Positions 8,156 to 27,431 of a stretch of 64,000 nt of DNA are shown here, piece by piece. The stretch covers positions 172,437 through 236,436 of the forward strand of contig CANQSA010000002.1 of assembly GCA_947626415.1 (NCBI GenBank). Direction: 5' to 3'. This DNA comes from an uncultured Lachnospiraceae bacterium (GTDB lineage: Bacteria > Bacillota > Clostridia > Lachnospirales > Lachnospiraceae). The first letter of the stretch is position 1. Each line of letters opens with the position of its first letter. The translations under genes were made by a program, and so were the position numbers. The notes beneath the pieces were generated by a model. That model searched no databases and was not told where the DNA came from. It was given only the letters and a program-made list of their open reading frames with translations.

Positions 8156-11100
8156 TTATTTTTTCTGATATTTAACCCATCTTTGTATATTTTTTATCGT
8201 ATTTGAAGCAGTTACCTCCGTTTTGGATTCTTTAGCCTCTGTTTTTGTGTGATAATAGGTATAAATTAACTGACGATCCCTATAACGGTATTCAACATGA
8301 GTTTCAGCCGGAACTTGAGTTGCCTCTCCAAAAAACCATTGATTACACCAACTATGACCACATTTACTGGATCCGTAGTATCCGTATAAACCTCTTCCGG
8401 AATCAACAAGACTAAGCGGGTATGTTAAGATGATTTCATCATAAATATTACATCCATTCCATCCTTGTGTACCATACCAATAATGATTAGAACTACGATA
8501 AATCCAATATCGATAATTTGTATACGCTGCTCTATCTATCACTACTTTCGTTTCTATTTGTCTGGAATCACTGTTACTAACCGCTGTTCTCGACCAGTCA
8601 CTCCAGGAAGAATAATCACTCCATTTAGAAGTTGTATTGTAAAGCGTATATCCCGGTTCATACGATTTATTTGATGTAATATTTGTCACAAGATCATAAG
8701 TCCATTTCTGTTCCACAATCTTTGCTCCGGACGGGATTTTAGAAGCCAGCACCCAGTCTGATACCGAGTTTTTTGTCCAGTGTGCATATAAAGTGTGTGC
8801 ATCCGCGGCTGAAACAACTGTTGACGCCGTAATATTTTTCCCTTCACTTGCTGAAGTATACCATCCTAAAAATGTATAGTATTCTCTACTAGGTATAGGT
8901 AATTCCCCATACGGTGAATTATATTGAACAGTGACACTTGCTTTTGTTATATTCCCCCCATTTGGATCAAGAGTCACTCGATACTGATTAACATGCCACT
9001 GAGCATATAAAGTTTGATCCTTTCTTAGGGAGTAAATTGTATTTTCCGTCACTTTACTTCCACCGTTTGATGATGTATACCACCCGTCAAAAGTATATCC
9101 TTTTCGAGTTACAGATGGCAAGGTACCATATTTTTCCCCAAAGGTCACTTTCTTTTGATTCAGAGTCCCAGTACCTCCATTTGCTTTAAATGATACAGTA
9201 TAAGAATTTGCATTCCACTGAGCATATAAAGTTTGATCCGTTGTTAATGAATAAATCGTATTTTCCGTCACTCTACTTCCACCGCTTGCTGATGTATACC
9301 ATCCGCTAAAAGTATATCCTTTTCTGGTTACAGATGGCAAGGTACCATATTTTCTGTCAAAAGTTACTTTCTTTCGCTCCAGAGTCCCGGTACCCCCATT
9401 TGCTTTAAATGATACAGTGTATGAATTTGCTTTCCAACCAGCGTAGAGGGTATGATTGGAAGAAGTAGTTATCTGCATATTTTTTGTTACCTGGACACCT
9501 CCTGATTTTTCCATATACCAACCGGAAAATGTATATCCTGCTCTAATTGGAATCGGAAGTTGAAGTTTACCATAAGTATCCAGCACATACGCCTGCTTAC
9601 TTGCAATATTTACAGAACCTCCATTTGCATCAAACGAAACGGTGACTGCCTGTTTTCCTTTACTTACATAAAGAACAATTGTTTCTCCCGGTAATTGTGC
9701 AGTACCCGATTTGGGAGATTGCTCAATAATGGTACCAGCCGGAACAGCAGCATCATAATTTTCCAGAGCTGTAACTTGAAATCCCTGATCTTTCAATATC
9801 TTTTCAGCCTCTTGCCGCATCTTTCCAACAACGTTCGCAACTTCTATTGTTTCACGTCCGCTGGATACTATAATCGTTATCTGATCACTTCGTTTTACAT
9901 TTGTACCTGCAGAAATACTCTGACTGATAACATTACCTTCTGCAACATTTTTATCCTTCTTGTACTCTACATCAACTACAAGTCCTTTTTCCGTCAATGT
10001 GTTTTTTGCAATATCTTCCTTTTGTCCAACCACATCTGGCATAGAAAAAGCGGCAGGACCGATTGATACAGTCAGAGTAATGCTTGTCCCTTCTTCAACT
10101 TCTGTTCCAGCCTCTACACTTTGAGAAATTACAGACCCATATGCGACTACTTCATCATTTTTTTCCACAAAATGCGGGTTATTCAATCCTGCTTTTAAAA
10201 GTTTTTCAACTGCATCCTCTTTGGTATCCCAAATCACATAAGGAACTGTGGACACTCCATTTTCAGGAGATTCTATCTTCTTCCCACTGCTGACCATGAG
10301 AAGTACAGTCCCATTCTTATCTATATAGGATCCTCCCACAGGTGTCTGCAAGATAATTTTTCCGGCATTGATATATTCTGATTCTATAGATCCATCTGTT
10401 GCCGCCAGCAAATTCCCCTCTTCTATCAATTTTAATGCCTCTTCTTTGTTCAGTCCTTCCACATCCGGTACAATTACAATATTGTCAGGAATCACTATTT
10501 CTTCCGTAAAATTTGAAAAGTTAATCTTGCCCGTTATCAATAATGCTCCAAATACCAAAATAAGAGCCATAGCCACCGGTAGGATAATTTTTAACCACAA
10601 AGGCCATGCGTATAAGTCTATTTTCTTTATCTTTCCATAGATTCTTTTTACAGGGACATCAGCATTCAAATCTTTTATAAACGTTGCAATATCCTGGGTT
10701 CGGTCTTCCTTCCGAACATTCATTGCATTCAAAATTGCATTTTCCCTGTTACGTGATAATTTTTTATTGATTTTATGTGGTTCTACAAGAATTTCCTTTT
10801 TTCTATTCTCATATTCGGCGCGCCGCTCCATTGCATCCGGCGGCCTTTTCCCTGTTATCATTTTATATAAGGTAGCAGCAACCGAATATACATCTGTATA
10901 GGGTCCCTGTTTTCCCTTACTCTGGTATTGTTCTGCAGGAGAGTATCCCGGTTTTATAATTGTGGTCAAACTTCTGCTGTGTGATGTTGTAGCATATCTG
11001 GATGCCCCAAAATCAATCAGTTTAACCTCTCCGGTTTTAGTAAGAAAAATATTATCCGGTGCAATATCTCTATGTATCAGTCCCTCCGTATGTACTACCT

Positions 11101-11632
11101 GCAAAGATTCCATAATCGGCATTAACATAGCAACTGCAGTATCTTCAGGAATTGTACCTTCTCTCTTCAAATATTCGGTCAAAGTTTCTCCGTCCAGATA
11201 TTCCATGATGATATATGCCGTATCATTTTCCTCAAAACTGTCAAAAATTTTAACGATTCCGGGTTCATTTTGAAATTTTGCAAGATGCTTTGCTTCCTCA
11301 ATAAACTTTTTCAAACCGTCATTAAATTGTTCGCTTTTTTCGCCTTCAAAAACTTTTACCTGAGATCTCCCCGGTATTCTAGTTGAAAATTCACCCGGTA
11401 AATATTCTTTAATAGCAACCTTTTGTTCCAGGCGTCCGTCCCATCCAATATAAGTAACGCCGAATCCGCCATAACCAAGTACTTTTCCTACAATATATCT
11501 TTCATGCAATAATGAACCCGTTTCCAGATGAATTGCTTCTTCAACCTCAGTTCCAACCACATAACCGCAGTGCGGACATACTTCAAACTCATTTCCAAAC
11601 AGTTCCATACATCCTAAACATCTTTGACTCAA
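8156..11632 (-). CDS. Membrane Ser/Thr kinase with PASTA and InlB B-type repeats
   Basis: 1158 residues. Order of parts: zinc ribbon (C5-x2-C...C19-x2-C), kinase domain about 45-325, one membrane helix near 345-368, four PASTA-type repeats to about 645, four B-type (InlB/Flg_new) beta repeats to about 935, and a Trp/Tyr-rich C-terminal domain. The kinase has GYGGFG, VAIK, HRDIAPDN and LIDFGAS, so it should be active. PASTA domains of PknB-like kinases bind peptidoglycan fragments; the B repeats suggest protein or surface contact. B repeats two and three are nearly identical at the DNA level. Last gene of the type VII operon, 3 bases after the sister kinase. Likely the signal input for the operon's FHA proteins; substrates unknown. 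Confidence 0.9.
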   Translation of the reverse strand: MSQRCLGCMELFGNEFEVCPHCGYVVGTEVEEAIHLETGSLLHERYIVGKVLGYGGFGVTYIGWDGRLEQKVAIKEYLPGEFSTRIPGRSQVKVFEGEKSEQFNDGLKKFIEEAKHLAKFQNEPGIVKIFDSFEENDTAYIIMEYLDGETLTEYLKREGTIPEDTAVAMLMPIMESLQVVHTEGLIHRDIAPDNIFLTKTGEVKLIDFGASRYATTSHSRSLTTIIKPGYSPAEQYQSKGKQGPYTDVYSVAATLYKMITGKRPPDAMERRAEYENRKKEILVEPHKINKKLSRNRENAILNAMNVRKEDRTQDIATFIKDLNADVPVKRIYGKIKKIDLYAWPLWLKIILPVAMALILVFGALLITGKINFSNFTEEIVIPDNIVIVPDVEGLNKEEALKLIEEGNLLAATDGSIESEYINAGKIILQTPVGGSYIDKNGTVLLMVSSGKKIESPENGVSTVPYVIWDTKEDAVEKLLKAGLNNPHFVEKNDEVVAYGSVISQSVEAGTEVEEGTSITLTVSIGPAAFSMPDVVGQKEDIAKNTLTEKGLVVDVEYKKDKNVAEGNVISQSISAGTNVKRSDQITIIVSSGRETIEVANVVGKMRQEAEKILKDQGFQVTALENYDAAVPAGTIIEQSPKSGTAQLPGETIVLYVSKGKQAVTVSFDANGGSVNIASKQAYVLDTYGKLQLPIPIRAGYTFSGWYMEKSGGVQVTKNMQITTSSNHTLYAGWKANSYTVSFKANGGTGTLERKKVTFDRKYGTLPSVTRKGYTFSGWYTSASGGSRVTENTIYSLTTDQTLYAQWNANSYTVSFKANGGTGTLNQKKVTFGEKYGTLPSVTRKGYTFDGWYTSSNGGSKVTENTIYSLRKDQTLYAQWHVNQYRVTLDPNGGNITKASVTVQYNSPYGELPIPSREYYTFLGWYTSASEGKNITASTVVSAADAHTLYAHWTKNSVSDWVLASKIPSGAKIVEQKWTYDLVTNITSNKSYEPGYTLYNTTSKWSDYSSWSDWSRTAVSNSDSRQIETKVVIDRAAYTNYRYWIYRSSNHYWYGTQGWNGCNIYDEIILTYPLSLVDSGRGLYGYYGSSKCGHSWCNQWFFGEATQVPAETHVEYRYRDRQLIYTYYHTKTEAKESKTEVTASNTIKNIQRWVKYQKK
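8999..9436. repeat. Two near-identical 219-bp tandem units inside the kinase gene
   Basis: The block beginning gagcatataaagtttgatcc at 9001 recurs at 9220 with a period of 219 bases (73 codons). It encodes B-type repeats two and three (both with SYTVSFKANGGTGTL and KGYTF). Recent duplication is likely, so the unit number may vary between strains and may misassemble in short-read data. Confidence 0.8.
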
Positions 11633-11634
11633 CT

Positions 11635-13620
11635 TTACTCACCTCTCCTTTTAAAAACAAACTTTTGTTTTATATCTGACAGTGCTGCAAGCTGCATTGA
11701 CTGAATTTTTGATTCAAAGCAAGTAGGATTTACCGGAATTTGTCCGTCATTACACTCACTTATCATTAAATAGTTTTGATATACATTTCCCAACATCCAG
11801 GCAAGCAGCCTTTCCGCAGCCTCTAATTCTTCTTTTGTCCCGCTGCCAATACTCCATTCATAAATAAACTTGCATTGTATCTCATCACTATCAAAATAAA
11901 CATATGTTTTTTCGTAATTTGTTAATTTAGTTCGAACTTCATTTATCATCATTGTTGATGATAATAATACCGGGCTGCTATTGGCTTCATTATTTAAAAA
12001 CTCCTCTTTTGAACATAACCCGCTAACACTAAAATTTGCTTTTAAAAGGTCCTCACACCGATCATCATATGCTATATGGTCAGACGAAAAATCACTGATG
12101 CTGTGGAAATAATTATCGGAATAGTTGATGCAACTGGCTCCATTTGTAATTACAAACGCAACCGGCACTTCTATTGCAAGTGGAACTTGTTTCCTATTAT
12201 CATAATAATCTGAATACTGATTTAAAAACATTGCGCTTTTAAATTGTTCTGAATCAATCACAGAATCCAAATCTTCCGCCTTTTGCAGTATATCCACGGG
12301 TAATCCCGTACTTTCAAACAAAGTTGGAAGTTTTCCCTGATCAGCAGCTTCTTGAATCCGCTTTTCATATTCTGCTTCAGGAATCGCAACTGTCTCAACA
12401 GTGATTCCTTCGTTTTTATGTTCGAAATCTGTCCGAATAACCTGCATGGCATCTGTTTCCTGCGACCCCTCAGATACAGAATACCAGACAACAATATCAG
12501 CCGGATCTAAATATCCTTTTTTTCGTTCATTTTGATATGTATTATATACAACAACCGTTCCGATAAGGAGAATGATAACCGCAGCAGCAATTCCAAAAAA
12601 GCGTTTCAAATTTCTTCTCTTTTTTTCCTTTGCTAACGGAAGTACTTTCCGTTCACCGTTAATTGCACGCAAAAATTCCTGCACTGTTTGAAAGCGCATA
12701 TGTTTTTCTATAGCCATTGCCTTCATGATAGCATTGCTTAAATTTTCAGACAGCAATGGATTTAATAAATGCGGCGGCACAACTTCATCCTTATTATCCC
12801 TTCTATCTGTAGCCTCATCCGGTTTCACACCGGTTAACATCGCATATAAAGTTGCCCCTAATGCATAAATATCAGTCCATGGACCGAGTGTATTATTTTT
12901 ATCATACTGCTCTACAGGGGAATACCCGGGTTTTAAAATAACATCAATTATTTCATCTGTACTGTCTGCCAGTTTTGCTGCTCCCAAATCCAATAACTTA
13001 ACTGACTGACGATCTCTGATTCCGTTAGCGGAACAGATATAAATGTTATCCGGAGCGACATCACAATGAATGATATTTTGTTCATGAAAAGACTTTAAAG
13101 CATTCCCTACTTCATTAGCTACCATCAATGCGAAATCCATATCTGCTTTACCACCGGATTTCTTCAAATATTCTCTTAAGGTTTCTCCCTGGAGAAGTTC
13201 CATCACAATGTAAGCCGTATTATTTTCTTCAAAAAATTCAAATACATTCGGTATACTTCTATGGCTTCCAAACTTTGCCATATTTCTTGCCTCTGCAAGG
13301 AACCGCTTCTTTCGATACTCAAATTCTTCCCTTGACTTTTTTGCAATAATCAAGTTTTTCAAGCCTACCGCTCTTGTAGCAAGACGACTTACAAAAAACT
13401 CTTTAACCGCAACAATAGTCTCCAGTTTTTTATCCCATGCCCGATAAACAATTCCAAATCCTCCTGATCCGACTGCCAGCCCAAGTATATAGCGGCCTGC
13501 CAGTATAGTTCCCGGGGCTAAATGAATGGGCTCTATGGCTTCTTCTTCAATGTTTCCGCAATAAGGACAAACTTGATATTGATCATCATATTCCCCAAAA
13601 CACGAATAACATCTTTTCAT
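11635..13620 (-). CDS. Membrane Ser/Thr kinase with extracellular solute-binding-protein-like domain
   Basis: 661 residues from MKRCYSC (start at 13620 chosen for GGAG 8-9 bases upstream and an ATGA overlap with the FHA gene). Parts: zinc ribbon (C4-x2-C, C-P-Y-C), kinase domain about 40-310, membrane helix (FFGIAAAVIILLIGTVVVY), then about 280 outside residues. The kinase has GSGGFG and VAVKEFF, but reads HCDVAPDN in place of HRD and LLDLGAAK in place of DFG. The catalytic Asp residues remain, so it is a non-RD, DLG-type kinase and may still be active. The outer part (ADIVVWYSV..., LPTLFESTGLP, VPLAIEVPVAFVITNG) resembles family 1 ABC solute-binding proteins. It may sense a small ligand; that is inference. 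Confidence 0.85.
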   Translation of the reverse strand: MKRCYSCFGEYDDQYQVCPYCGNIEEEAIEPIHLAPGTILAGRYILGLAVGSGGFGIVYRAWDKKLETIVAVKEFFVSRLATRAVGLKNLIIAKKSREEFEYRKKRFLAEARNMAKFGSHRSIPNVFEFFEENNTAYIVMELLQGETLREYLKKSGGKADMDFALMVANEVGNALKSFHEQNIIHCDVAPDNIYICSANGIRDRQSVKLLDLGAAKLADSTDEIIDVILKPGYSPVEQYDKNNTLGPWTDIYALGATLYAMLTGVKPDEATDRRDNKDEVVPPHLLNPLLSENLSNAIMKAMAIEKHMRFQTVQEFLRAINGERKVLPLAKEKKRRNLKRFFGIAAAVIILLIGTVVVYNTYQNERKKGYLDPADIVVWYSVSEGSQETDAMQVIRTDFEHKNEGITVETVAIPEAEYEKRIQEAADQGKLPTLFESTGLPVDILQKAEDLDSVIDSEQFKSAMFLNQYSDYYDNRKQVPLAIEVPVAFVITNGASCINYSDNYFHSISDFSSDHIAYDDRCEDLLKANFSVSGLCSKEEFLNNEANSSPVLLSSTMMINEVRTKLTNYEKTYVYFDSDEIQCKFIYEWSIGSGTKEELEAAERLLAWMLGNVYQNYLMISECNDGQIPVNPTCFESKIQSMQLAALSDIKQKFVFKRRGE

Positions 13621-14291
13621 TCTTCTTTCTCCTTTTTGTCTATTTCTTCCCACGAAAATGATTCTCCGCAAAATGGAACAAACATAAATTTACTGTCTCC
13701 TAATTCGATTACGTCATAGGAAGTCAGTTTTTGAACACTGGTAACCAAATTATCATTTAAATATGTAATTCCACTGCTGTCACCGGGCTGAAGATAAAAA
13801 TCTCTTTTTTTGGGTTCATACACAATCATTGCATGCTTTATACGTGATATACTACCGTCATCAGTTATGGCAATTCGATTTTCCGTACTTCTGCCAATAG
13901 AATTCTGACCCGCATAAATAAAAAAACTTTTTCCGAAATGATACCCCTTGATACATACTATCCATCCAACGACCGGATCTGATAAATTTTCATATCGTTT
14001 TTCATCAGGCTGCTGTCCGGCTACCTTATTAAAATATCCTATTGTTTTTTCTTCATTGCTGGCAGACGCTTTTTTTACAACTTCTTTCAGTTTGTCTTTC
14101 TGGTTGATTACGATTTCTTCTGTCACGGAGTCGCCTTTATCATAACTTGTTTTATTTTTCCTTCCCATAAAGCGGCTGCTTTCAGAAACAAATTGACTCC
14201 CATTACAATGCGGACAGCTTTTGTATTGTTTTTTGTCATAAAAATGTCCGTTTTCACATTGAATTACATCTTCTTGTCTTACACTACTCAT
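13617..14291 (-). CDS. FHA-domain protein with N-terminal zinc ribbon
   Basis: 224 residues. An N-terminal knuckle (CENGH...CPHC) is followed by a low-complexity linker with KTIGYF, then an FHA domain at about 115-210. The FHA core is readable: NSIGRSTENRI, SRIKHAMI and GDSSGITYLNDN. FHA domains bind phosphothreonine, and the Thr in KTIGYF is a plausible kinase target similar in position to the site in GarA/OdhI-type proteins. The gene lies between the phosphatases and the kinases and overlaps the next kinase by ATGA, so it is probably the cytoplasmic reader of this phospho-relay. No membrane segment. Confidence 0.85.
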   Translation of the reverse strand: MSSVRQEDVIQCENGHFYDKKQYKSCPHCNGSQFVSESSRFMGRKNKTSYDKGDSVTEEIVINQKDKLKEVVKKASASNEEKTIGYFNKVAGQQPDEKRYENLSDPVVGWIVCIKGYHFGKSFFIYAGQNSIGRSTENRIAITDDGSISRIKHAMIVYEPKKRDFYLQPGDSSGITYLNDNLVTSVQKLTSYDVIELGDSKFMFVPFCGESFSWEEIDKKEKEE

Positions 14292-14309
14292 AATTAACTC
14301 CTTTATTAT

Positions 14310-15107
14310 TTATTTTATGCCTATCAATGCTATTGTCATATTATCTCTGGATTTTTGATTGCTTTTTGCGTTTTTCTCCGCTTTCATTTCCAGCGCCTGA
14401 ACAGCTTCCTCTATATTTTTAAAATTACTCAGGATTCTTAAAATTTCCGAATCCGTAACCGTTTTATATAAACCGTCCGACATAATAATAATCCTATCTT
14501 CTTTTTCCAAATCCAACGGAATTTCCGAGTAATCTATCAATTCAAGATTCCCGATTCCCAAGAAACTAATCAAGGCCTCCCCCCTCTTACTTTCTTTGTA
14601 AAATTCCGTTTCATCTAATAACCCCGCTTTTCTTTTTCCGAGCAGCACAGTATAATAATTTTGATCTTGCGTCAGTTGAACAATCTCTCCATTTCTCATC
14701 AAATACGCTCTGCTGTCTCCTACAGAACACCATATAAGTTTTTTTCGATTGACTAAAACAGAAACAACTGTACTGCCTGCTTTAAGCAGCTTTCCATCGC
14801 TTCCTTTCAGACCTGAAATCATTTTATCGATCTTTTTAGCAGCGCTGATCAACATTTCTTTTTGTTCCCCTGCAAAATAATTATTTTCATACTGCCTTAA
14901 AAAAGTTTCTACTGCTAATTCACTGGCTGCCTTTCCGCCTTCCTGTCCTCCCATTCCATCGCATAAAACAAGCAACCCCTCATCTTGTTTCATACTATAT
15001 CCAAAACTATCCTGCTGCGTATCCCTATCTCCAATTACAGATAACGCAGCAAGTCTAAATACAGAATTTTCATCTTTTATTAAATAATGGTCTTTATGAA
15101 TTAACAT
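14310..15107 (-). CDS. PP2C-family Ser/Thr phosphatase (second of two)
   Basis: 265 residues from MLIHKDHY; start at 15107 chosen because GAGGA lies 7 bases upstream. PP2C metal-site motifs are intact: DRDTQQDSFG, LVLCDGMGGQEGGKAAS, CSVGDSRAYL, IIMSDGLYKTV and RDNMTIAL. It removes phosphate from Ser/Thr using two Mn or Mg ions, and is expected to oppose the two kinases encoded downstream. It follows the other phosphatase by 14 bases. No membrane segment, so it acts in the cytoplasm. Confidence 0.92.
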   Translation of the reverse strand: MLIHKDHYLIKDENSVFRLAALSVIGDRDTQQDSFGYSMKQDEGLLVLCDGMGGQEGGKAASELAVETFLRQYENNYFAGEQKEMLISAAKKIDKMISGLKGSDGKLLKAGSTVVSVLVNRKKLIWCSVGDSRAYLMRNGEIVQLTQDQNYYTVLLGKRKAGLLDETEFYKESKRGEALISFLGIGNLELIDYSEIPLDLEKEDRIIIMSDGLYKTVTDSEILRILSNFKNIEEAVQALEMKAEKNAKSNQKSRDNMTIALIGIK

Positions 15108-15121
15108 ATCTGTTCCTCTTT

Positions 15122-15856
15122 TTATTGATTCCATACAGCGATTGCAGAATAATTATCCATATCTTTTTCTATTCCATTAGTCTGAACGATTTGAACCATA
15201 TTGTTTAACCATTCTTCAACCGTTTCTGCTTTTTTTAATTGTGCACACATTTCCTTTTCCTCGATTAATTCCCAAAATCCATCCGAACATAAAAGGAAAG
15301 CCTGACATTTTTTCAGCGGAATTGGACTCATAAGTTCAAACAAGTTTTCGTCCCACTCGATTCCCAACACTCTTAATAAGAAATTACGATCCGGATGATT
15401 TCTTATCTGATCCTCCCTGATTTCCTTTGATAAAACCAGCATTTGAGGAATACTATGATCCAATGTTCTTATTTTAACTTTATTCTTATAGAAGACATAC
15501 GCCCGAGAGTCTCCAATATGTCCGATATACGCATTTTTGCCGTCAGTAACTACCGAAACTCCAGTTGTTTTCATTTTATGCATCGCTCTGGCTTTTTTCT
15601 GTTCTGCTAATAATGTATCTTGAGCGGTTATAAAAGCTCTGCTTAAAAACTCACCAATATTGTCTGTTTCTCGGAAAATATTTTCAAATACATTTACCAC
15701 CAGCGAAGATGCAACATCTCCCATTCCATGGCCACCCAGTCCATCGCAAAGAACATAACAATTATTTTCTCCATTTTTAAACACAGCAAGAGAATCTTCA
15801 TTTATTTTTCGTCCTCCTGCATTTGTAAAAACTGCAGATTGAATTTGCTTATCCAT
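15122..15856 (-). CDS. PP2C-family Ser/Thr phosphatase (first of two)
   Basis: 244 residues with GGRKINEDSLAVF, YVLCDGLGGHGMGDVAS, GHIGDSRAYVF, FLLCSDGFWEL and DNYSAIAVW. These hold the metal-binding Asp residues of PP2C enzymes. It is clearly diverged from the adjacent phosphatase, so the pair is not a recent duplication. It may be matched one to one with the two diverged kinases. AGGAG lies 5 bases before the ATG. It is the first signalling gene after the secreted-protein block of the type VII operon. Confidence 0.92.
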   Translation of the reverse strand: MDKQIQSAVFTNAGGRKINEDSLAVFKNGENNCYVLCDGLGGHGMGDVASSLVVNVFENIFRETDNIGEFLSRAFITAQDTLLAEQKKARAMHKMKTTGVSVVTDGKNAYIGHIGDSRAYVFYKNKVKIRTLDHSIPQMLVLSKEIREDQIRNHPDRNFLLRVLGIEWDENLFELMSPIPLKKCQAFLLCSDGFWELIEEKEMCAQLKKAETVEEWLNNMVQIVQTNGIEKDMDNYSAIAVWNQ

Positions 15857-15892
15857 ATAAACTCCTATCGCTTCATTTAACGAAAAACTGCT

Positions 15893-16201
15893 TTATCTGC
15901 ATAATGTATTAGCTCTGTTTATCGCACGTATCTGTGCTTCCCGATATTGCTCTGCTGATTCCCGAAGTGCTTCCGCATATTTTTCCATAGATATCTTTGT
16001 CATATCGGAAGGCGTTTTCGCTGAATAAATTTCCTTCCAATAGATCTTAAACGCATCATAGTCCTGCCCTTTCCAATTTTCATTCAATTCAAAAACGCTG
16101 TCCTCAATATATTTCATATTTCTTTCAAATTTAAAAACATAATCTTTGATTTTTTCAGCAGCAATTACTAATTTTTGATAATTTACTTTAATATATGACA
16201 T
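15893..16201 (-). CDS. WXG100-like small helical protein, putative cargo partner
   Basis: 102 residues, predicted helix-turn-helix hairpin with the loop motif WKGQDY (WxG type) near residue 43 and a C-terminal YREAQIRAINRAN tail. WXG100/Esx proteins dimerise as four-helix bundles and carry type VII substrates to EssC. It is encoded just after the lipase and two other small helical proteins, as in modules where small partners bind the helical tail of a toxin. A good GGAG ribosome site lies 8 bases upstream. Whether it is secreted alone or with the lipase cannot be told. Confidence 0.75.
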   Translation of the reverse strand: MSYIKVNYQKLVIAAEKIKDYVFKFERNMKYIEDSVFELNENWKGQDYDAFKIYWKEIYSAKTPSDMTKISMEKYAEALRESAEQYREAQIRAINRANTLCR

Positions 16202-16219
16202 AGAAATTTCTCCATTTAT

Positions 16220-16513: not shown

Positions 16514-16515
16514 TC

Positions 16516-16719
16516 TTACTCAAACAACTCCATTTCGTTTAATTTTTTCTCTATTGTTTCATACTGGTAAGCTATCTTTTGTATTCTATTTGAACACTTT
16601 TCATTGCCAATCCCTTCAAAATCTCTATTTATACAGTCAGAAATATAATAAAGATCACCAATAATGTTCTTTAATTCCGTTTTGATCAAATATAATTCAT
16701 ACTTTGTATCCGCATCCAT
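16516..16719 (-). CDS. Small helical protein, putative type VII cargo partner
   Basis: 67 residues, all predicted helix (ELYLIKTELKNIIGDLYYI; IQKIAYQYETIEKKLNEM). No WxG motif and no known domain. Position and size resemble the small Lap/Tla-type partners that sit beside LXG or reverse-arranged type VII toxins. It follows the lipase by 13 bases with an AGGAAG ribosome site. Role inferred from context only. Confidence 0.6.
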   Translation of the reverse strand: MDADTKYELYLIKTELKNIIGDLYYISDCINRDFEGIGNEKCSNRIQKIAYQYETIEKKLNEMELFE

Positions 16720-18763: not shown

Positions 18764-19651
18764 TTACTCCTCTCGTTCAATATGAACCTTGAATTCCATA
18801 TCAGCAAGTCTCAAAGACATACCGTCAAATAATTCTTTTTTTACATCAGACTCTATTTGTTCTCCGTCAAGATATGTTCCATTTGTTGTCCCCAGATCAA
18901 TAATATAATATTTCTCCTGCTCTTTAATAAAATCTGCATGTTTTCTGCTCACTTTATGATTATAGATTCTATAATCTGTCACCCCTTCCATTTTTCCTAT
19001 CCGGAAGGGAAATTTTGAAATTATTATATTTTCAGGGGATTCTTGTGACTCAAGCCATATATGACTGAGCGAAGCAGAAGCAGCCTGCTCTTTTTTTTCA
19101 TGGCTTGTTCGAAAACGATTACAAAAATCATCCAACATAGACACCGTATATGCTGTATTGTGATGTACTTCCTCAATTAACTCCTGTACATAATTCAAAG
19201 TTTCATCTGATTCAAAAGAACAGGCCGCTATAAAATCACAAAGAAATCCTTTTAAATTTCCTTCTGACTCATATGGCTGAAGCGGAACATACATGAAATA
19301 CACATACCACGTTGCCGGGTCAACATAAACAAAATCCAACGACCATTCGATCCGCTCTTTGCTGAAATAATACTGCTCTAGTTTCTTTAGAACTATTACA
19401 ATATTTTGCAGCAGCAGCAAAAAGAGTTTCTGATTGATTGAATTTATTTTCAGAAAATCTGTCAGCGTTATAAATCCTTCAACTTTATAATATAAAATAC
19501 TCTTTCCTTTTTCTTCTTTCACAGCTACGCTGAGAAGTCTGTCGAGAGTATGATCACCAATCAAATTTACTTCTCTATAACTTGGCTGCTGACCTTTTTC
19601 CCCTTTTAAAATAATTTTCTCCCTGCTTTTTTTCATCTTTCCTTTTTTCAT
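18764..19651 (-). CDS. DUF6382 and FHA-domain protein of the type VII system
   Basis: 295 residues. Residues about 15-165 match the DUF6382 pattern (FITLTDFLKINSINQKLFLLLLQNI; WSLDFVYVDPATWYVYFMYVP), a fold reminiscent of the pseudokinase head of YukC/EssB. Residues about 205-290 form an FHA domain: FRIGKMEG, NHKVSRKHA, DLGTTNGTYLDG. The Arg, Ser, His and Asn residues for phosphothreonine binding are present. The ATG overlaps the lipoprotein stop codon. Likely a cytoplasmic reader that links kinase state to the secretion channel; the EssB analogy rests on resemblance only. The basic N-terminus (KKGKMKKSREK) has no membrane helix. Confidence 0.8.
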   Translation of the reverse strand: MKKGKMKKSREKIILKGEKGQQPSYREVNLIGDHTLDRLLSVAVKEEKGKSILYYKVEGFITLTDFLKINSINQKLFLLLLQNIVIVLKKLEQYYFSKERIEWSLDFVYVDPATWYVYFMYVPLQPYESEGNLKGFLCDFIAACSFESDETLNYVQELIEEVHHNTAYTVSMLDDFCNRFRTSHEKKEQAASASLSHIWLESQESPENIIISKFPFRIGKMEGVTDYRIYNHKVSRKHADFIKEQEKYYIIDLGTTNGTYLDGEQIESDVKKELFDGMSLRLADMEFKVHIEREE

Positions 19652-21858
19652 TTTTTCCCTTCATTTTCTTTTATGATTACAGCGCATCTTACCGAATGCT
19701 TTTTATCGGTTGTATTTGCAATAACAGATGTTATCCCCGCTCCGGTTGCCTTTAACTCGCATGATGTACTATCTTCACTATTCTTTATTCTCTGTATTTT
19801 TACAATTGAAGAATCTTCTGATATCCATTCAACATCAGAGCCTCGGTATCCTTCCGGCAGAGCGCTAACTGTAACCACAGCTGACTCTCCTGATTTCAAT
19901 GAGACTGCATAAGAAGAAATACTCATAACTCCTTCTTGACTATTGTCATTATCTGTTGTGTCATTTTCTCCATCCAGAACTTGAAGTGTATCTAAAGAAC
20001 ATTGATCCACCAAACCGATTCCGAATTCAAAATGCATTGAACTTTTATTGGATTTAATTATTGCGCCGTTTTTATCTATAATTTTAACTTTAAGTTTAAT
20101 TCCAAGTTTATGGGCAAGCGTTTCACCGTCCATTCCAATTTCCAGTGACACAATAGGATAATAACCTGTACCATCAATACATATGAGTGTCCCTTCTTTC
20201 ATACCCTCCTGGCTTTTCATTGTTTCAAAATTTCGGTATAATTTACCTTCATATCTTAATACTTTGGTGATCTTCCCGGCAGTTTCAAACTCCATTTCTA
20301 CATCCAATGTAACATCAATCAATTTGATTCCTACCGCTTTTAATATTGCTTTTCCTCCAAAACCAACCTTAAAGTCTACACTTAACTCCTTGTTTTTTTC
20401 ACATTCCGAAGTCTGTGTTTTTTTATATCCGTTTTCTTCTGTATACTTTACGGAAGATGTTGTCTCTACGGATGAGCTGATTTCAACATCACCATTTGCA
20501 GAAGCTTTAGCTATCAATTCAAAATTAAGCATAACTCCGGCACAGACTGGAATCGGAACAGTGGCTATCTTTATCTCCTCTTCTATTTTTCCGCTATATT
20601 TCAGAGAAGATTCAAGTTTATAATGCACTTCATAATCAAAGCTTTGAATTCCATAGGGAACCCCAAATGCCTTTTTTGTCTTTAATTGCGTTTTAATATA
20701 AAAATCTTTTAAAGCAATCTTTCCTTCAAGGTCCCATCCGGATTCATATAAATCCGTAGCTGCCAGTTTTTTTGTTTCTTCAGCGATTTCAGATGCTTTC
20801 GGCACAACATAACCTGTTTTTTTCAAAACCTCAGCTTCTTCTTTTACTTCAATCTGCTGATATTTCTGAGAAAATGTTTTTTTCTTATCACTGTTTATTT
20901 TTACTGAAAAGCTCAAATCTGTGCCTTCTCCGCTTAACTGCTCAACCTTTTCAGCTTTTCTATTTAATAAATTACAGTCGAGTGTTGTCGCCTGTGAAGC
21001 TGCCCCATATCCCTTTTCTGCTGAAGCAGGGCTGATTGTCTCTAACATAACTCCTTTTTCTGTTTTTATTGTTGAAGCGTCTGTAACTGTTCCTGTATGC
21101 GCAAATTCAAGTTCATCAAATACTTCTCCGATTTCCGGTTCCACCGTATCCAGGACGAATGATCCATCATCAGTATAATTAACAGCCGAAACTTTTCTCG
21201 CAATACCTTGAAGATCTTCTTCACTTCCCTGTATGATAATAATATCTCCTGCAGAAAATTTGTGTTTGTTATCACTTACAGTTACTTTTCCATTTTCATC
21301 GGAGGCTGCAGGTACTGTATATACATCTGTTTTGTATTTTATATTTTCATATTCTGTAAAGCTTCTATTCTGATAAGTTTCCAAAGCCCATTCTGCAATT
21401 TGGTTCGCATAAATTCTCGTTGCGTTGGAATCTTCCTGCTCTGGATTAAGATTTATACTTTTCGCATATGCTAAAGCAGATGGAAATGAACTATAATCCG
21501 CCTCCGAAGCCTTAACTGCCGAGTCTATGATAAAGTCAACCGTTGCAAATTCATCCGGTTTAAAATTTTTTTCATTCTGATCAAATACTTCCCATTCTGT
21601 ACATGCTTGAATATACGGAAATAATTGATTATCTGCCGTTACGTCTGTATAGTATGGCTGATCATTCAAACAGGAATCCATACCGAAGTAGCCTCCGAGC
21701 ATTTCCGCCCATTCGCCACGTGTAATATATTCATCACCGTTATCTGTGGTATCCGACACATCTGTATGCTTATCCTGATCAAAAGAAAAATGGGACAATC
21801 CACAGGATGTACATAGCAAAGATATACTTACCAACAATAGCACTACTACTCGTTTCAT
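19648..21858 (-). CDS. Large lipoprotein with SLH-like and Ig-like domains
   Basis: 736 residues with a lipoprotein signal peptide (VVVLLLVSISLLCTSC, Cys at about 19; the lipobox is slightly unusual). Residues about 45-130 resemble one or two SLH modules (YITRGEWAEMLGGYFG, YYTDVT, PYIQACTEW, FKPDEFATV). A long beta-rich middle follows, and a C-terminal bacterial Ig-like (BIG2-type) domain at about 645-730 (SLKSGESAVVTVSALP, VEWISEDSSIVKI). It would sit on the outer membrane face and touch the wall. Encoded between the Esx-like genes and the FHA gene, it may be an extracellular part of the secretion channel. No homologous function recognised. Confidence 0.7.
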   Translation of the reverse strand: MKRVVVLLLVSISLLCTSCGLSHFSFDQDKHTDVSDTTDNGDEYITRGEWAEMLGGYFGMDSCLNDQPYYTDVTADNQLFPYIQACTEWEVFDQNEKNFKPDEFATVDFIIDSAVKASEADYSSFPSALAYAKSINLNPEQEDSNATRIYANQIAEWALETYQNRSFTEYENIKYKTDVYTVPAASDENGKVTVSDNKHKFSAGDIIIIQGSEEDLQGIARKVSAVNYTDDGSFVLDTVEPEIGEVFDELEFAHTGTVTDASTIKTEKGVMLETISPASAEKGYGAASQATTLDCNLLNRKAEKVEQLSGEGTDLSFSVKINSDKKKTFSQKYQQIEVKEEAEVLKKTGYVVPKASEIAEETKKLAATDLYESGWDLEGKIALKDFYIKTQLKTKKAFGVPYGIQSFDYEVHYKLESSLKYSGKIEEEIKIATVPIPVCAGVMLNFELIAKASANGDVEISSSVETTSSVKYTEENGYKKTQTSECEKNKELSVDFKVGFGGKAILKAVGIKLIDVTLDVEMEFETAGKITKVLRYEGKLYRNFETMKSQEGMKEGTLICIDGTGYYPIVSLEIGMDGETLAHKLGIKLKVKIIDKNGAIIKSNKSSMHFEFGIGLVDQCSLDTLQVLDGENDTTDNDNSQEGVMSISSYAVSLKSGESAVVTVSALPEGYRGSDVEWISEDSSIVKIQRIKNSEDSTSCELKATGAGITSVIANTTDKKHSVRCAVIIKENEGKK

Positions 21859-21917
21859 TAGATTTTTCTCCTATGTTAGTATAACAGGCCTAATTTCTAT
21901 TATCTTCAGGCGGAAGG

Positions 21918-21946
21918 ATACGGGCGGTTTTCTATACCGCCCGTAT
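21918..21946. other. Stable intercistronic hairpin between Esx genes and lipoprotein gene
   Basis: A perfect 11-bp GC-rich stem ATACGGGCGGT / ACCGCCCGTAT with a 7-base loop in otherwise A+T-rich sequence. No T run follows on either strand, so it is not a standard terminator. It could protect the 3' end of an Esx mRNA or reduce read-through. Confidence 0.65.
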
Positions 21947-21957
21947 ATGCCAAAAGA

Positions 21958-22254
21958 TTATTTGAATGCACTGGCATTATTCGTAAGAACTATTTCTATG
22001 TTTCTGTATTTTTCTGCACTCTTTCTTAAATATTCCGCATAAGATTCTACAACTCTTTTATATTCCTCAAAACGAGGTCTGAGTGCATTCATATTTGCCC
22101 GTATTTCCATGGCTGCATCACTCTTATAGAAAACTTCAAGATCGTTCATCTTTTTATTGATATCGCTAAGTTTACTATCCATATCTAAATTGATTCTTCC
22201 AATCTCTGCAGCCAGATTACTCAAATCCTGTGTTGAAATTTTAATTTCTGCCAT
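21958..22254 (-). CDS. Esx-like (WXG100 superfamily) secreted protein
   Basis: 98 residues forming a helical hairpin with a central turn VFYKSDAAMEI in place of WxG and a C-terminal SYAEYLRKSAEKYRNIE. The latter resembles the YxxxD/E export region. The strong ribosome site (AGGAGG) and position directly after EsaB-like and a sister gene suggest a main structural substrate of the system. Loss of the Trp-x-Gly pair is seen in some clostridial Esx proteins. Confidence 0.78.
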   Translation of the reverse strand: MAEIKISTQDLSNLAAEIGRINLDMDSKLSDINKKMNDLEVFYKSDAAMEIRANMNALRPRFEEYKRVVESYAEYLRKSAEKYRNIEIVLTNNASAFK

Positions 22255-22269
22255 TTTTCACTTTCCTCC

Positions 22270-22575
22270 TTAATGATGTCTTAACTGATGTATCATTTCA
22301 ATGTTATCCTCTTGAACCTTCCGATACGCATCCGCCGCTTTTTTCAGAAAATCCGCATAATCAAGCATTAACCGATGCATTTTTGTAAAATCATCTTTGA
22401 AACTGTCAAATTGATTTACAAACGTAACAATTTCATCTCCTCTTAATTGAGAAGTCATTGCTTCTGTAACGGAGTATAGCTGATTATATTTGGCTTGATA
22501 ATCAGCTGCCAGTTCTTCAATTTCTGCCGCGGTCTTATCCACTTCTTCCGTGATAACCTGAATTGTTGTTTCCAT
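22270..22575 (-). CDS. Esx-like (WXG100 superfamily) secreted protein
   Basis: 101 residues with two long amphipathic helices and the turn LRGDEI near residue 47; it also lacks the WxG motif. The end contains YADFLKKAADAYRKVQE, with a YxxxD-like signal. A very good AGGAGG ribosome site precedes it. Paired with the adjacent 98-residue gene, it probably forms a heterodimer delivered to EssC. The pair, rather than a single EsxA gene, is noteworthy. Confidence 0.78.
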   Translation of the reverse strand: METTIQVITEEVDKTAAEIEELAADYQAKYNQLYSVTEAMTSQLRGDEIVTFVNQFDSFKDDFTKMHRLMLDYADFLKKAADAYRKVQEDNIEMIHQLRHH

Positions 22576-22606
22576 TTTTTTAGATACCTCCTTAAAAAGT
22601 TATTAT

Positions 22607-22861
22607 TTAAATGAGCATAAGTTTTGCAGCATTTCCAATGCCCAATTCAAATACAGTATGATTTACATTCAATATCTTCCCACTTGCCCTAAATGCGATA
22701 ACGGTATCCCGCATTGGAATAAATCTGCCTTCTGACAAGTCAAAAATTGCTTTTTTTATCAATTCTGTTACTTCAAATATTCGTAATTGAATCGGAATAA
22801 AAATATCATATGATTGATTCAAAACAGGTACAAATATATTGACGAGAACTTTATGCATCAT
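22607..22861 (-). CDS. EsaB/YukD-like ubiquitin-fold protein
   Basis: 84 residues. The beta-hairpin start VLVNIFVPVLNQSYDIFIP, central helix TELIKKAIFDLSEG and C-terminal strand AAKLMLI match the YukD/EsaB ubiquitin-like fold, a cytoplasmic core part of Firmicute type VII systems that associates with EssC. The start codon overlaps the end of essC (ATG within its last codons), so the two are coupled. Two adjacent ATG codons are possible. Confidence 0.85.
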   Translation of the reverse strand: MMHKVLVNIFVPVLNQSYDIFIPIQLRIFEVTELIKKAIFDLSEGRFIPMRDTVIAFRASGKILNVNHTVFELGIGNAAKLMLI

Positions 22862-25800
22862 ATGCTGATTCCCCCTCCTTCTTTGCAGAAAGTAATTTCA
22901 TAAGAGTCGGACGACCCCGATCAATCATATAACCGAAATCCGTACTGATTTCTTCATACATTGATCTTTTAATCTTATTGATTTTAAGCGTATACTGATC
23001 TGCCACGCCATTTCCAATCCAAATACCATTTGATCCGGCTATATGCAATTTATACCAGGAGTCATATTCAAAAGTTTTGAGTTGTGTCACTGAATCACAC
23101 AGTACAAAATGGATCTTATATTCCGGAATTGCTTTCATCAGCAGAGTATCCATTTTATTTTTTTCATCATTATCTAACTGTCCCAAAAATTTTTTTGCTC
23201 CATAAATCAGATAACATCTCTCGTCATATTCCCTTAGTACCGATAAGTCCTTATCCGCATCTTTATAGCAGTTATTCCGCTTCACCATCTCAGTAAACAT
23301 TTCTGTTATAGCTTCTTGAAAACTGCCATTATACAAATATGTTTCACAGCCTTTTAATACCTTTTCTTCATCTATAACAATCAAGTTACAGCAGCCTGCA
23401 AGAATTGATATCAGTTCTTCTATAAAGTTTTCCGTATCAATAATATCTGAAGACAATACCGGAAGTAATACTGACTTTTGCAAATTGCAGGTTACAATGT
23501 TCAAATTATCCTTAGCTACTCCGACCGGTATACTGGATAATCCTGCAATCTTGTGTTGGACAAACTCCAAATTAACTGTTTCCGGAAGAATCGGAATATG
23601 CTTTGCAGTTTCATGATATTGAATTGCCAGTTTTTCACTGAATTCTCGAATAAAGGCCATAACATCTTTGTTCTCTGTGCAATATGCTGTTTGGAATTCA
23701 TATACCCGATCTAAAGCAACAAGTCCGCGGCCTTTAAATTTTGACGGTATAATTCCATCATTCTTCCCAACGATTGTTACATAATCTGTCTCGTCATTTA
23801 ACTGCATAGTCAGGAGTAATTTGAAATTTTGCTGTATTTTATATCTAACTTCACTGCTGTTTACTGCAGTTACTACAAAATAAATACCATATTTAACACC
23901 GTCTCGAGTTAACATGATAAACTCATCCTGATAATCTTCCATTTGTTCTATAAAACCGGAAATATGGTTGAGAATAACAACAATGTTTGGTACTGTCTTT
24001 CCGCTATTTCTGCAATAGGTATCATAATCACCTCCAAAAGCAGAAAACAGGCTTCTTCTCCTTTCCAATTCTTTACACAACATTTTAAATAAATTACTGC
24101 CTTTTTCCTTATCGGAGCTTGTGACGATTCCGCCAACCTGAGGAGCAGTCTGAAACACTTTTAACGTTTCAGAGCCATAATCCATTATATAAATATTTAC
24201 TTCTTTTGGCGTATGGTTTCGAATCAAAGAATAGCACAAGGTCGTCAAAAACATAGTTTTCCCGCTCCCGGCTGTACCGAAAACAAGACAATTTCCTTCC
24301 TCGGATAATGGAATTGTAAGTATATCCTTCTTTTGATTAAACGGATCGTCATATTCACCAACTATAGGACATAATGTAGTTCCTGCTGATCTCTGTGAAT
24401 ACTTTTCTTCGAGCTTATCAACAAAAATATGTGCTGGAATTGCCGGTAACCATAATGTGCTGGCTGATACTTTTTCTTCTGCTGCCAAATCCGACAGATA
24501 TTTTACAATTGAAACTACCTGTTTTGCATTTTTTTCGTTTCTAATCTTTTTTTCAGATTTTACACTGATTATCGCACGTCCAAGGGAATCTATTACCTGA
24601 ACGCTTGAATCAGTCGGTTTTTCCATGTTATCACTCGGAAAATAATCGGCTCCACACCATGCTGACTGCCCTAAAACAAAAAGTTCATTAAACCCAACCT
24701 GCAAATAAAACCTTCCTGTCTGAGAAATTTCTGCAGCATCCGGACATTTGATCATATCTTGTGAATCTGCCTTTTCCTGAACCTTCAGACAAATTCTGAA
24801 TCTGCTGTTGCTCCAGATTTGATCATCTACTACCCCACTTGGTTTTTGTGTGGCAAGAATCAAATGAATTCCTAAACTACGCCCAATCCGCGCTGCGCTG
24901 ATCAACTGCTGCATAAAGTCAGGCTGCTGTGTTTTTAATTCTGCAAACTCATCAGAAATAATAAATAGATGGGGAACCGGATCCTTAACAACTTTTTCCC
25001 GATACAGCTGCTGATATTTATATATATCCATCGTTCCTTCGTTGGATATTTTGCGTGCTTTATTAAATATTTCTTGTCTTCTCCTAAGTTCGCTTTGAAT
25101 TGACACCAATGATCTGGTGATTTCCGCTCCATCAAGATTTGTTATCGTCCCGGCAAGATGCGGAAGTTTAAACCCTTTATCCTGATCCTCAAAGGCACCG
25201 GCCAATCCTCCTCCTTTATAATCAATCAAAATAAACGCAACCTCATGCGGATGATAATTAACAGCAAGCGATAATATATAGGTAATAATCAGTTCTGATT
25301 TACCGGATCCTGTCATTCCTGCTACTAATCCATGCGGACCATGATATTTTTCATGCAAATCCAACATAAAGACATCTCCGTCTTCTCCTACACCTATTGG
25401 CGTTTGTAAAGTCTTTGACGGATTATTTTCCTTCCATCTTTTCAGTGCATTCAAATGTTCGACTTTTCCAACATGAAACATATCTAAAAAAGTAAGCATT
25501 GTTGGTAAGATATAATTTTTATCGGCAATATTTAATTTAATATTGGCAATTTTAACAGCCATAGGCTCAAAAACATTACGGTCGACTATATCAGCAGCAA
25601 AAGAAACCTGCTTTCCCGAGGTATCGTTTTTATCAAACATTTTAGAGTCTTTTCCGTCTGCATGTATGATGGTTCTGGTCTCTTGTGGGAAATCATTAAA
25701 ATTGTCCCCAGTCATAACTGCCGTAAATGCAAGTCCTTCTTCTTTAAGAAGCAGTGGCAAAACAGTACATTTTTTTCTTAAAGCACTACTTGTAACGATG

Positions 25801-27431
25801 CAGATATAGTAAGGCAAAAATACCCTTTTGGGGGTTTGAGAAATATTTTTTCTATCTAAAATCTCTTTTTCCAAAATAGCAGAGAGTTCTTTTACTTCAT
25901 CCATTGTTTGGGCAAAATATCTGATTGTCCTGTTGTTATTCCAAATATGAGGCAGATATCTTACAAATTTCCATTTAGCTTCTTCTGATCTGTCTGTGAT
26001 CACAATAATTTTAACTTCATCATAACTATGTAAAGAAACAAGCTGCAGGATTAATGACATAATCATGTCATCACAATTTTCTTTTTCACCATAAATACCC
26101 ACTGCAATATTATCAATCAACGAAATATGGATAGGAACATTCAATAAATTTTTAGGTTCTTCTGCTAAGGCAAGCATTGCATTTTGGAGAGAATCATCTT
26201 CCATTGTAAATTTTTTCCCCTGATACTTAACATCAACATTCATTTTAACTGTTCCGGTTCCTAACCTTATACTAAGAAAATCATTCTGCCCAACTGTCCT
26301 TTCCCACAAATTTGGTTTTACTTCAATGATTCTTTCAAAGCATTCCTTTAGCGTAATGTATGTTTTATTTAAAATATCCGTTTGAATTTTTGCAATATCC
26401 CTAAACTTATCCTCTGTTTCCTTTAAATAGGCAAAGTACTTCTCCTGGCGCTTTACTTCATTTTGAATCTTTTCTTTTTTTTCATGTTTTCTTGTGAATA
26501 TCGGCCATAAAACCGTGCCTAACAGCATACTCAGAGACATAATTAAAGTCGGTAATGCCTGCGTAAAATTTCCGCCACTCGACAGTACATTAAATAATGT
26601 AAATATTCCCGTACTTACAGATGCCATGGCCATTATAATCGAAGGACCAAGCATCAGCGCGATTGGTACAGTATCTATCTTCTGTGCTTGTGGAGGCGGA
26701 TCGATGGAAACTTCTTCACACTCAATCTCCCGATGGAAACGTGGAGCCCGAAAAAATACTTCATTTTCAGGATATTCAGAAATTTTTACACGTGGATTGA
26801 GACTCGGGTATTTGTATTCCGACAATTCTTCTGATTGAATCCGAACTCTAAAATCCAAATTATTAATTGCAAAATAACAATCTCCAATCACAATTCTCAA
26901 GCCCATGATATAGATATAATCACCGGGAAAAAGTTTTGCAGACTGAATGCGATGATTGTTTACATACGTCCCGTTTCGACTTCCCAGATCGCTAACAGAC
27001 CAATTTTCACCATCGAAAAAAAGTTTAGCATGATAGGATGTTACATATGGATTATGGTAGCAGATTTGGTTTTCTTCTGATCGTCCAATCGTGATAACGG
27101 CAGCTTCTTTCAAAACAAACTTAGAGAACATCTGCCTTTTTTGATCGATTTCTTCCGTAAAAAGAACTACTTTTTCTTCTGAATTATCTATTTTTAAGTT
27201 CCAAAAGCTGTCCGGCAACAGCTTGCATTCCCATATGGTTGCAGCGTCATGATCTAAAATATTTACTTTTTCATTAGATTTTGCATACCAGTTATTACCA
27301 AGAGCTTCAATACTGATTAAAGCTCTTAAATTATCTTTTTCATCACGATCATTTAACCAAAACTGCCCTTCTACTTTTTCCGGCAGAATAAGACTAAATA
27401 TTTCTTTTTCATTGATAAGATTAACAATCAT
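22851..27431 (-). CDS. essC: Type VII secretion ATPase EssC/YukB
   Basis: 1526 residues, the motor of the Esx system. N-terminal FHA domains (clear second one at about 115-175: TIGRSEENQI, SYHAKLFF, DLGSRNGTYV), two membrane helices at about 255-315, then three FtsK/SpoIIIE-type ATPase domains. D1 is intact: GMTGSGKSE near residue 704, and IISDEFAEL as Walker B. D2 has GTAGSGKT near 1055, but its Walker B strand reads IVVILNH, lacking the acidic pair. D3 is degenerate with no P-loop. This matches EssC in which D1 is the essential motor. First gene of the operon, 35 bases downstream of the palindromic promoter. Start at 27431 with AGGA 7 bases upstream. Confidence 0.95.
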   Translation of the reverse strand: MIVNLINEKEIFSLILPEKVEGQFWLNDRDEKDNLRALISIEALGNNWYAKSNEKVNILDHDAATIWECKLLPDSFWNLKIDNSEEKVVLFTEEIDQKRQMFSKFVLKEAAVITIGRSEENQICYHNPYVTSYHAKLFFDGENWSVSDLGSRNGTYVNNHRIQSAKLFPGDYIYIMGLRIVIGDCYFAINNLDFRVRIQSEELSEYKYPSLNPRVKISEYPENEVFFRAPRFHREIECEEVSIDPPPQAQKIDTVPIALMLGPSIIMAMASVSTGIFTLFNVLSSGGNFTQALPTLIMSLSMLLGTVLWPIFTRKHEKKEKIQNEVKRQEKYFAYLKETEDKFRDIAKIQTDILNKTYITLKECFERIIEVKPNLWERTVGQNDFLSIRLGTGTVKMNVDVKYQGKKFTMEDDSLQNAMLALAEEPKNLLNVPIHISLIDNIAVGIYGEKENCDDMIMSLILQLVSLHSYDEVKIIVITDRSEEAKWKFVRYLPHIWNNNRTIRYFAQTMDEVKELSAILEKEILDRKNISQTPKRVFLPYYICIVTSSALRKKCTVLPLLLKEEGLAFTAVMTGDNFNDFPQETRTIIHADGKDSKMFDKNDTSGKQVSFAADIVDRNVFEPMAVKIANIKLNIADKNYILPTMLTFLDMFHVGKVEHLNALKRWKENNPSKTLQTPIGVGEDGDVFMLDLHEKYHGPHGLVAGMTGSGKSELIITYILSLAVNYHPHEVAFILIDYKGGGLAGAFEDQDKGFKLPHLAGTITNLDGAEITRSLVSIQSELRRRQEIFNKARKISNEGTMDIYKYQQLYREKVVKDPVPHLFIISDEFAELKTQQPDFMQQLISAARIGRSLGIHLILATQKPSGVVDDQIWSNSRFRICLKVQEKADSQDMIKCPDAAEISQTGRFYLQVGFNELFVLGQSAWCGADYFPSDNMEKPTDSSVQVIDSLGRAIISVKSEKKIRNEKNAKQVVSIVKYLSDLAAEEKVSASTLWLPAIPAHIFVDKLEEKYSQRSAGTTLCPIVGEYDDPFNQKKDILTIPLSEEGNCLVFGTAGSGKTMFLTTLCYSLIRNHTPKEVNIYIMDYGSETLKVFQTAPQVGGIVTSSDKEKGSNLFKMLCKELERRRSLFSAFGGDYDTYCRNSGKTVPNIVVILNHISGFIEQMEDYQDEFIMLTRDGVKYGIYFVVTAVNSSEVRYKIQQNFKLLLTMQLNDETDYVTIVGKNDGIIPSKFKGRGLVALDRVYEFQTAYCTENKDVMAFIREFSEKLAIQYHETAKHIPILPETVNLEFVQHKIAGLSSIPVGVAKDNLNIVTCNLQKSVLLPVLSSDIIDTENFIEELISILAGCCNLIVIDEEKVLKGCETYLYNGSFQEAITEMFTEMVKRNNCYKDADKDLSVLREYDERCYLIYGAKKFLGQLDNDEKNKMDTLLMKAIPEYKIHFVLCDSVTQLKTFEYDSWYKLHIAGSNGIWIGNGVADQYTLKINKIKRSMYEEISTDFGYMIDRGRPTLMKLLSAKKEGESAYDA

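Follow-up and report, generated by a model that had tools for sequence, protein, structure and literature searches.

The window analysed here is a stretch of 64,000 nucleotides from an uncultured Lachnospiraceae bacterium (GenBank assembly GCA_947626415.1, contig CANQSA010000002.1, positions 172,437 to 236,436 of the forward strand), and we describe in it a type VII secretion system (T7SS) occupying coordinates 8156 to 27431 on the minus strand. Sixteen co-directional and tightly packed genes lie there, with essC first and the gene for a PASTA kinase last. These genes and the features around them are listed below, with transmembrane (TM) segments and zinc motifs as given by simple scans.

8013..27783, no strand: genomic island with the whole T7 operon and a helix-turn-helix (HTH) gene, 19.8 kb, ends accurate to about 20 bases
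27541..27765, plus: 74-aa Cro/C1-type HTH protein, candidate repressor (HTH_26 46.1 bits, cut-off 22)
27467..27488, no strand: perfect 22-bp palindrome, candidate operator, filling the promoter spacer
27465..27493, minus: promoter-like site of essC, TTGACT-17-TATAAT (11/12 score)
22851..27431, minus: EssC/TseC ATPase, 1526 aa (TIGR03928 1058.9 bits, cut-off 778.4)
22607..22861, minus: EsaB/TseB-like small protein, 84 aa, conserved adjoining essC
22270..22575, minus: WXG100 protein (TseA-like), 101 aa (PF06013 39.2 bits, cut-off 27.3)
21958..22254, minus: WXG100 protein (TseA2-like), 98 aa (PF06013 35.9 bits; NF035934 97.0, cut-off 100)
19648..21858, minus: envelope lipoprotein, 736 aa, candidate TseI stand-in, weak C-terminal Ig-like match
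18764..19651, minus: TseJ, with DUF6382 (residues 1-190; 65.9 bits) and FHA (about 196-293; 51.4 bits)
18506..18760, minus: one-TM protein with C-terminal zinc ribbon (TseK/TseH-like), 84 aa
16733..18439, minus: reverse lipase (TslA-like, Mbeg1-like), 568 aa, predicted substrate (29.6 bits, cut-off 21.1)
16516..16719, minus: lipase partner, 67 aa, adjoining the lipase elsewhere too (e.g. L110, L113, L114, L139)
16220..16513, minus: WXG100 lipase partner, 97 aa (PF06013 29.2 bits)
15893..16201, minus: WXG100 lipase partner, 102 aa (PF06013 27.6 bits, cut-off 27.3)
15122..15856, minus: PP2C phosphatase 1 (PP2C_2 56.1 bits)
14310..15134, minus: PP2C phosphatase 2 (PP2C_2 59.2 bits)
13617..14291, minus: FHA protein with Cys-rich N-terminal stretch (FHA 37.6 bits), pocket Asn lost
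11635..13671, minus: membrane kinase D1, with zinc ribbon, kinase (Pkinase 109), TM 354-372 and an outside solute-binding-protein-like domain
8156..11632, minus: membrane kinase D2, with zinc ribbon, kinase, TM 340-358, four PASTA and four Flg_new repeats (profile and TM scans)

The operon and its island

The original prediction, made from the bare sequence, had described an uninterrupted co-directional run of these parts, and profile scans place every one of them as it stated. Gaps between the genes range from -55 to 99 bases, the -55 being due to the TTG start of the first kinase, for which an ATG 17 codons inward is likelier. A single transcript is likely, judging from the sequence. Four terminator-like sites lie on the minus strand, three of them intragenic and one (18523-18510; 5 pairs, poor T tail) at the extreme end of the zinc-ribbon gene, and the count of such sites over the whole region is at the chance level (10, with 9.8 expected). 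Promoter-like sites are likewise at chance level over the region (73, with 75.1 expected); the one ahead of essC has the top score within 8001-28000, its end lying 33 bases ahead of the ATG of essC. The palindrome within it may be the operator of the HTH protein, whose gene is divergent from essC and has relatives near essC in loci L186 and L094.

The unit gained or lost exceeds the operon, extending from about 8013 to 27783 and taking in the divergent HTH gene; the 19-kb run originally proposed as one operon (8156-27431) is a part of it. The GC content of this island is 36.3%, against 48-49% outside it. In blastn comparison with the sister genome G001, the only other genome of this two-genome genus that was compared, window 1-8012 matches at 94.8% and 27784-53308 at 96.7%, and G001 has just 29 bases between the two flank matches, an empty site for the island. 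Because the flanks are joined there, the operon was gained or lost as one block, kinases included. G001 carries a dissimilar T7 locus elsewhere (essC 36% identical), and kinase D1 has no match in that genome. The island ends were compared for repeats, and none of more than 10 bases, direct or inverted, was found; no recombinase gene was seen on reading the island's list of open reading frames.

The genome has one essC above cut-off, this one, and its product has an N-terminal FHA domain (61.1 bits), the sole FHA above cut-off in the protein, and TM segments at 252-270 and 293-311. The EsaB-like protein gives a weak ubiquitin match (E 0.13), and its orthologues adjoin essC in homologous loci. 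The lipoprotein has a hydrophobic segment at its N-terminus and no C-terminal TM segment in the simple scan; its Big_2 match (16.3 bits) falls below the cut-off of 22.8, and all three relatives scanned are above it. CxxC-CxxC zinc-ribbon motifs recur on the small one-TM protein (18506-18760) and on both kinases (11635-13671 and 8156-11632).

Relation to known secretion systems

Homologous loci were collected by a one-genome-per-species scan, of which the best 80 of 502 confirmed loci were kept, from Clostridia, Bacillaceae and Paenibacillaceae. Their essC products are 43-69% identical to the window EssC in the best segment, and many of them have the gene content of T7SSe, a subtype described by Garrett, Higginson and Palmer 2024 (PMC11217815). 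Subtype names are given here by gene content and not by the tree of that paper. On this basis the locus is, by its sequence, closest to T7SSe as the available part of the paper presents it: both have an EssC with FHA domain, two WXG100 proteins (the TseA/TseA2 pair), an EsaB-like protein (TseB, matched here by position and orthology), a PPM phosphatase (TseF), a membrane kinase (TseD), a soluble DUF6382-FHA protein (TseJ), a small one-TM protein and a reverse lipase, and both lack EsaA, EssA and EssB. The window EssC is also 45-47% identical to that of Neobacillus.

The locus differs from T7SSe, so far as the accessible text of PMC11217815 describes the latter, in having two kinases and two phosphatases, with one more FHA protein besides, and in having one small TM protein whereas T7SSe has both TseH and TseK; within the operon, to which the search was confined, no second one was found, and the gaps, none above 99 bases, are too short for it. 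Moreover, the Ig-like lipoprotein is without the C-terminal TM segment that TseI carries together with its signal peptide and Ig-like domains. The same text names the kinase, phosphatase, DUF6382-FHA protein and reverse lipase and proposes phospho-regulation of T7SSe, so the headline of the original prediction is not new. What we add to the published T7SSe is the prediction of a pseudokinase in DUF6382, the paired-kinase set, and the whole-system island with its empty site.

Likeness to T7SSb is more limited and comprises an EssC above the TIGR03928 cut-off, an EsaB-like protein and WXG100 proteins; here, in contrast, EsaA, EssA and EssB are not found, and the phosphothreonine (pThr) pocket of EssC is largely kept. 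The Fha-TssL-PpkA switch of type VI secretion, as outlined in the available part of PMC3953482, similarly places a kinase and an FHA protein by a secretion machine, but that machine is unrelated to the T7 locus here.

EssB and the DUF6382 domain

The T7SSb machine consists of EsaA, EssA, EssB, EssC and EsaB, the first three being membrane proteins. None of these three had been recognisable to the original prediction, and profile searches of the locus and of the whole of its 99.4% complete genome agree, the best matches being 13.7 bits for YukC/EssB (cut-off 27.4), 14.4 bits for EssA (cut-off 24.1) and 94-97.5 bits for EsaA (cut-off 122). The last is the sole EsaA-like match and was rejected as a YhgE/Pip protein (TIGR03061 205.8 bits, above cut-off) with no T7 gene beside it. 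A complete esaA-essA-essB set elsewhere in this genome was looked for, and none was found. PF10140 was above cut-off in none of 99 genomes of the class, with one match (20.1 bits) below it.

Among 16 genomes with homologous loci, which we chose from the 80 loci, 14 are without EssB, and two have a protein above the Pfam cut-off (loci L191 and L192). Both of these candidates were rejected as conjugation TraF-like proteins, as they adjoin an ATPase that looks VirB4-type by eye. A set built from one of them has TraF as its best PDB match (E 7.8e-30), with EssB at E 0.011, and that same protein, the one scanned, scores 59.6 bits against a TIGR03926 cut-off of 229.75. Members of the set that public sources name EssB/YukC therefore look like conjugation TraF proteins in these two genomes.

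TseJ has no TM segment in the simple scan, suggesting that it is soluble, and does not match PF10140 or TIGR03926. Since a fold search with whole TseJ returned mostly FHA domains, DUF6382 was predicted on its own, giving a model with pLDDT 95.5 for which Foldseek places TraF, EssB and YukC within the six best matches. The DUF6382 profile matches kinases with E 1.3e-4, in an alignment that starts past the VAIK-Lys strand; DFG is replaced by Y-x-P, and the HRD Asp and DFG Asp positions are both lost. DUF6382 is thus predicted to have a protein-kinase fold with an inactive catalytic site. It shares this predicted fold and dead active site with the pseudokinases EssB/YukC and TraF, but differs from them in being soluble and FHA-fused and in having no significant sequence-profile relation to TraF/EssB. 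A search of PDB sequences with the DUF6382 hidden Markov model gave nothing credible, the one match being DNA polymerase gamma-2 (E 0.34-0.43).

From the model, the role of EssB has probably not been lost but shifted to a soluble pseudokinase fused with FHA. The original prediction had spoken of a reduced or alternative type VII core: alternative it is, having been published as T7SSe (PMC11217815, in the part available), and reduced is probably wrong, because the pseudokinase part of EssB is apparently present as DUF6382.

Counts of TseJ were taken from DUF6382-only profiles, as an iterated TseJ profile drifted, scoring EssC highly, and was rejected. Left out were two fragments, P0043 and P0047, in A2, as well as 7 of the 44 DUF6382 places in A3 and 43 of the 65 proteins in A4. 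Nine of 11 TseJ relatives among the matches listed contain a zinc-ribbon motif with near-invariant Cys columns; the window TseJ is without it. Another DUF6382-FHA protein, scoring 138.7 and 47.3 bits, is encoded at L083:10325-11401, some 45 kb away from the island in this genome, among Tad-pilus-like genes (T2SSE and Peptidase_A24 above cut-off; TadZ and T2SSF weak), so that the predicted pseudokinase would also accompany Tad pili; two of 30 Tad-type loci were left out.

Signalling modules and their proposed role

Kinases D1 and D2 each have one TM segment and intact kinase motifs, and PADLOC matches on them were set aside as reflecting the kinase domain only. The outer part of D1 matches SBP_bac_8 with 29.9 bits (cut-off 27); six relatives were scanned, and two are above the cut-off and four below. 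Within 10-kb flanks, a kinase and a PP2C lie on the essC strand in 43 of the 80 loci, joined by DUF6382 in 36, and 18 have none of the three. Where at least 9 kb is available on each side (n=47), a kinase is on the essC strand in 37 loci, PP2C in 29 and DUF6382 in 28. The misses include cut contigs, kinases just past the stretch (L110, L123) and Paenibacillaceae loci in which none was seen. Absence of the kinases from homologous loci would have spoken against the original prediction, and was not what was observed.

Many homologous loci have one phosphatase and one kinase. The D1-D2 pair was found in 12 rows (the window, G017, G140 and nine named genomes), and two PP2Cs with the third FHA protein accompany it in 11 of them; G140 has one PP2C, and its kinase set is about 10 kb from essC with other open reading frames between. 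The paired-kinase label changes at least six times on the tree of TseC, the ATPase, a tree made by a quick method with long branches, in which the twelve paired rows were hand-chosen, 35 of 84 rows are in neither group, and L115 and L153, with two PP2C matches each, count as single-module rows. A D1 search of 23 chosen genomes gave some match in 17, and all ten matches above 350 bits adjoin an essC, one of them in the second T7 locus of G341. These data suggest that signalling modules are interchangeable among T7SSe-like loci.

Control of this system by Thr phosphorylation is plausible, given that the pThr pocket of the TseC FHA is kept, the kinase motifs are intact and the kinase pair is linked to essC. 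The TseC pocket retains Arg in 77 of 79 relatives and Ser, His and Asn in all 79, and in the window it consists of G116, R117, T131, H134 and N153. In TseJ-type FHA domains (n=42) Arg/Lys is found in 38, Arg(+1) in 40, and His and Asn in 41 each. In T7SSb the YukC pseudokinase binds the FHA region of YukB; since pThr residues are not conserved there, this contact seems not to depend on phosphorylation (PMC9600267; PMC13037476, citing Oka 2025; both in their available parts).

We judge it rather probable that this is a T7SSe-like island system in which soluble DUF6382-FHA replaces EssB and in which the kinases, phosphatases and FHA readers time the engagement of EssC. EssC, EsaB and WXG100 proteins are the established export core of T7SS, and by homology EssC, the EsaB-like protein and the WXG100 pair would form it here. 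The HTH protein would be the operon's repressor, acting on the palindrome of the essC promoter. D1 may sense a ligand through its outer solute-binding-like domain and D2 the state of the cell wall through PASTA, and the two would phosphorylate Thr on some core part. The FHA domains of TseC and TseJ, in which most pThr-pocket residues are kept, would read the mark and bring TseJ in, its DUF6382 pseudokinase would form an EssB-like contact with the FHA region of EssC, and the PP2Cs would remove the mark, so that phosphorylation would switch secretion. The Ig-like lipoprotein could conceivably replace EsaA/TseI as the path through the wall, and the lipase with its three partners is the likely substrate.

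Several observations weigh against this account. EssB is not among the best 50 VIA-align rows with the DUF6382 model. The window EssC has Thr (T131) where all 79 relatives have Ser, the TseJ-type pocket has Ser in 21 of 42 and Gly in 20 (the window TseJ has Ser), and the third FHA retains the pocket Asn in only one of 11 rows. The original prediction that activity is set by reversible Thr phosphorylation accordingly gains from the EssC pocket, the kinase motifs and the essC linkage, and loses by these three pocket substitutions.

A broader version, which we offer tentatively and hold to be somewhat short of an even chance, is that DUF6382 is the missing EssB: a kinase fold released from membrane anchorage, inactivated (DFG to YxP) and joined to FHA, giving a phosphorylation-controlled clutch in place of the fixed EssB-EssC contact, with the same part used in Tad pili and with machines moving as islands with interchangeable kinase modules.

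It is possible, if unlikely, that the locus serves for interbacterial killing by the lipase, phospho-control being minor. The protein has a GHSKG motif in its N-terminal lipase domain and a WXG100-like C-terminus (hhalign of the lipase and WXG100 sets, E 2.1e-6), as does TslA, which acts against S. aureus and belongs to a TslA-TlaA1-TlaA2-TilA system likewise having small helical partners on the 3' side (PMC10730906, available part). Here, however, there are three partners, and no TilA-like immunity gene was found in the window or the genome, where the profile gave just two short matches (32 and 36 residues; E 0.012 and 0.078), both to its N-terminal end, although 15 or more of the other loci do have TilA-like genes. 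In L072 a different protein, of 406 aa, occupies the lipase slot. Elsewhere, at L184:15025-21296, six or more genes for TilA-like lipoproteins stand in a row upstream of a reverse lipase.

We regard as slightly less likely still the reading by which, in a plain T7SSe, the active membrane kinase TseD replaces EssB and TseJ is a phospho-reader only. The topology of D1 and D2, a cytosolic kinase with one TM segment, fits it, and an EssB-like topology is noted for the related kinase TscD (PMC11217815, available part). Yet these kinases retain their catalytic residues, while TseJ separately carries the dead kinase domain. It is quite improbable that the kinases, the phosphatases and the third FHA make up a cell-envelope signalling cassette of general use that just rides on the island. 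In its favour, PASTA kinases usually monitor the cell wall, the paired set changes at least six times on the TseC tree, and 18 loci have no kinase, PP2C or DUF6382 in view; against it, all ten strong D1 matches adjoin an essC, a second T7 locus included, and kinase and PP2C share the essC strand in 43 loci.

Several type VII subtypes have been described without EssB, which raises the question of how EssC is linked to the other machine parts. If the replacement of EssB by DUF6382 is correct, a pseudokinase under a DUF name would explain that link, and a contact in a secretion machine would have passed from constitutive to phospho-switched, its input being a kinase with an outer solute-binding-like domain.

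Outside the island, window 53309-60506 is a second block missing from G001, with a GC content of 39-42% in its middle; by eye it encodes an ABC transporter, two permeases, a lipoprotein, a sensor kinase and a response regulator. Window segments 43443-43963 and 46221-46741 are apparent copies about 2.8 kb apart that cross-match in blastn at 68% identity.

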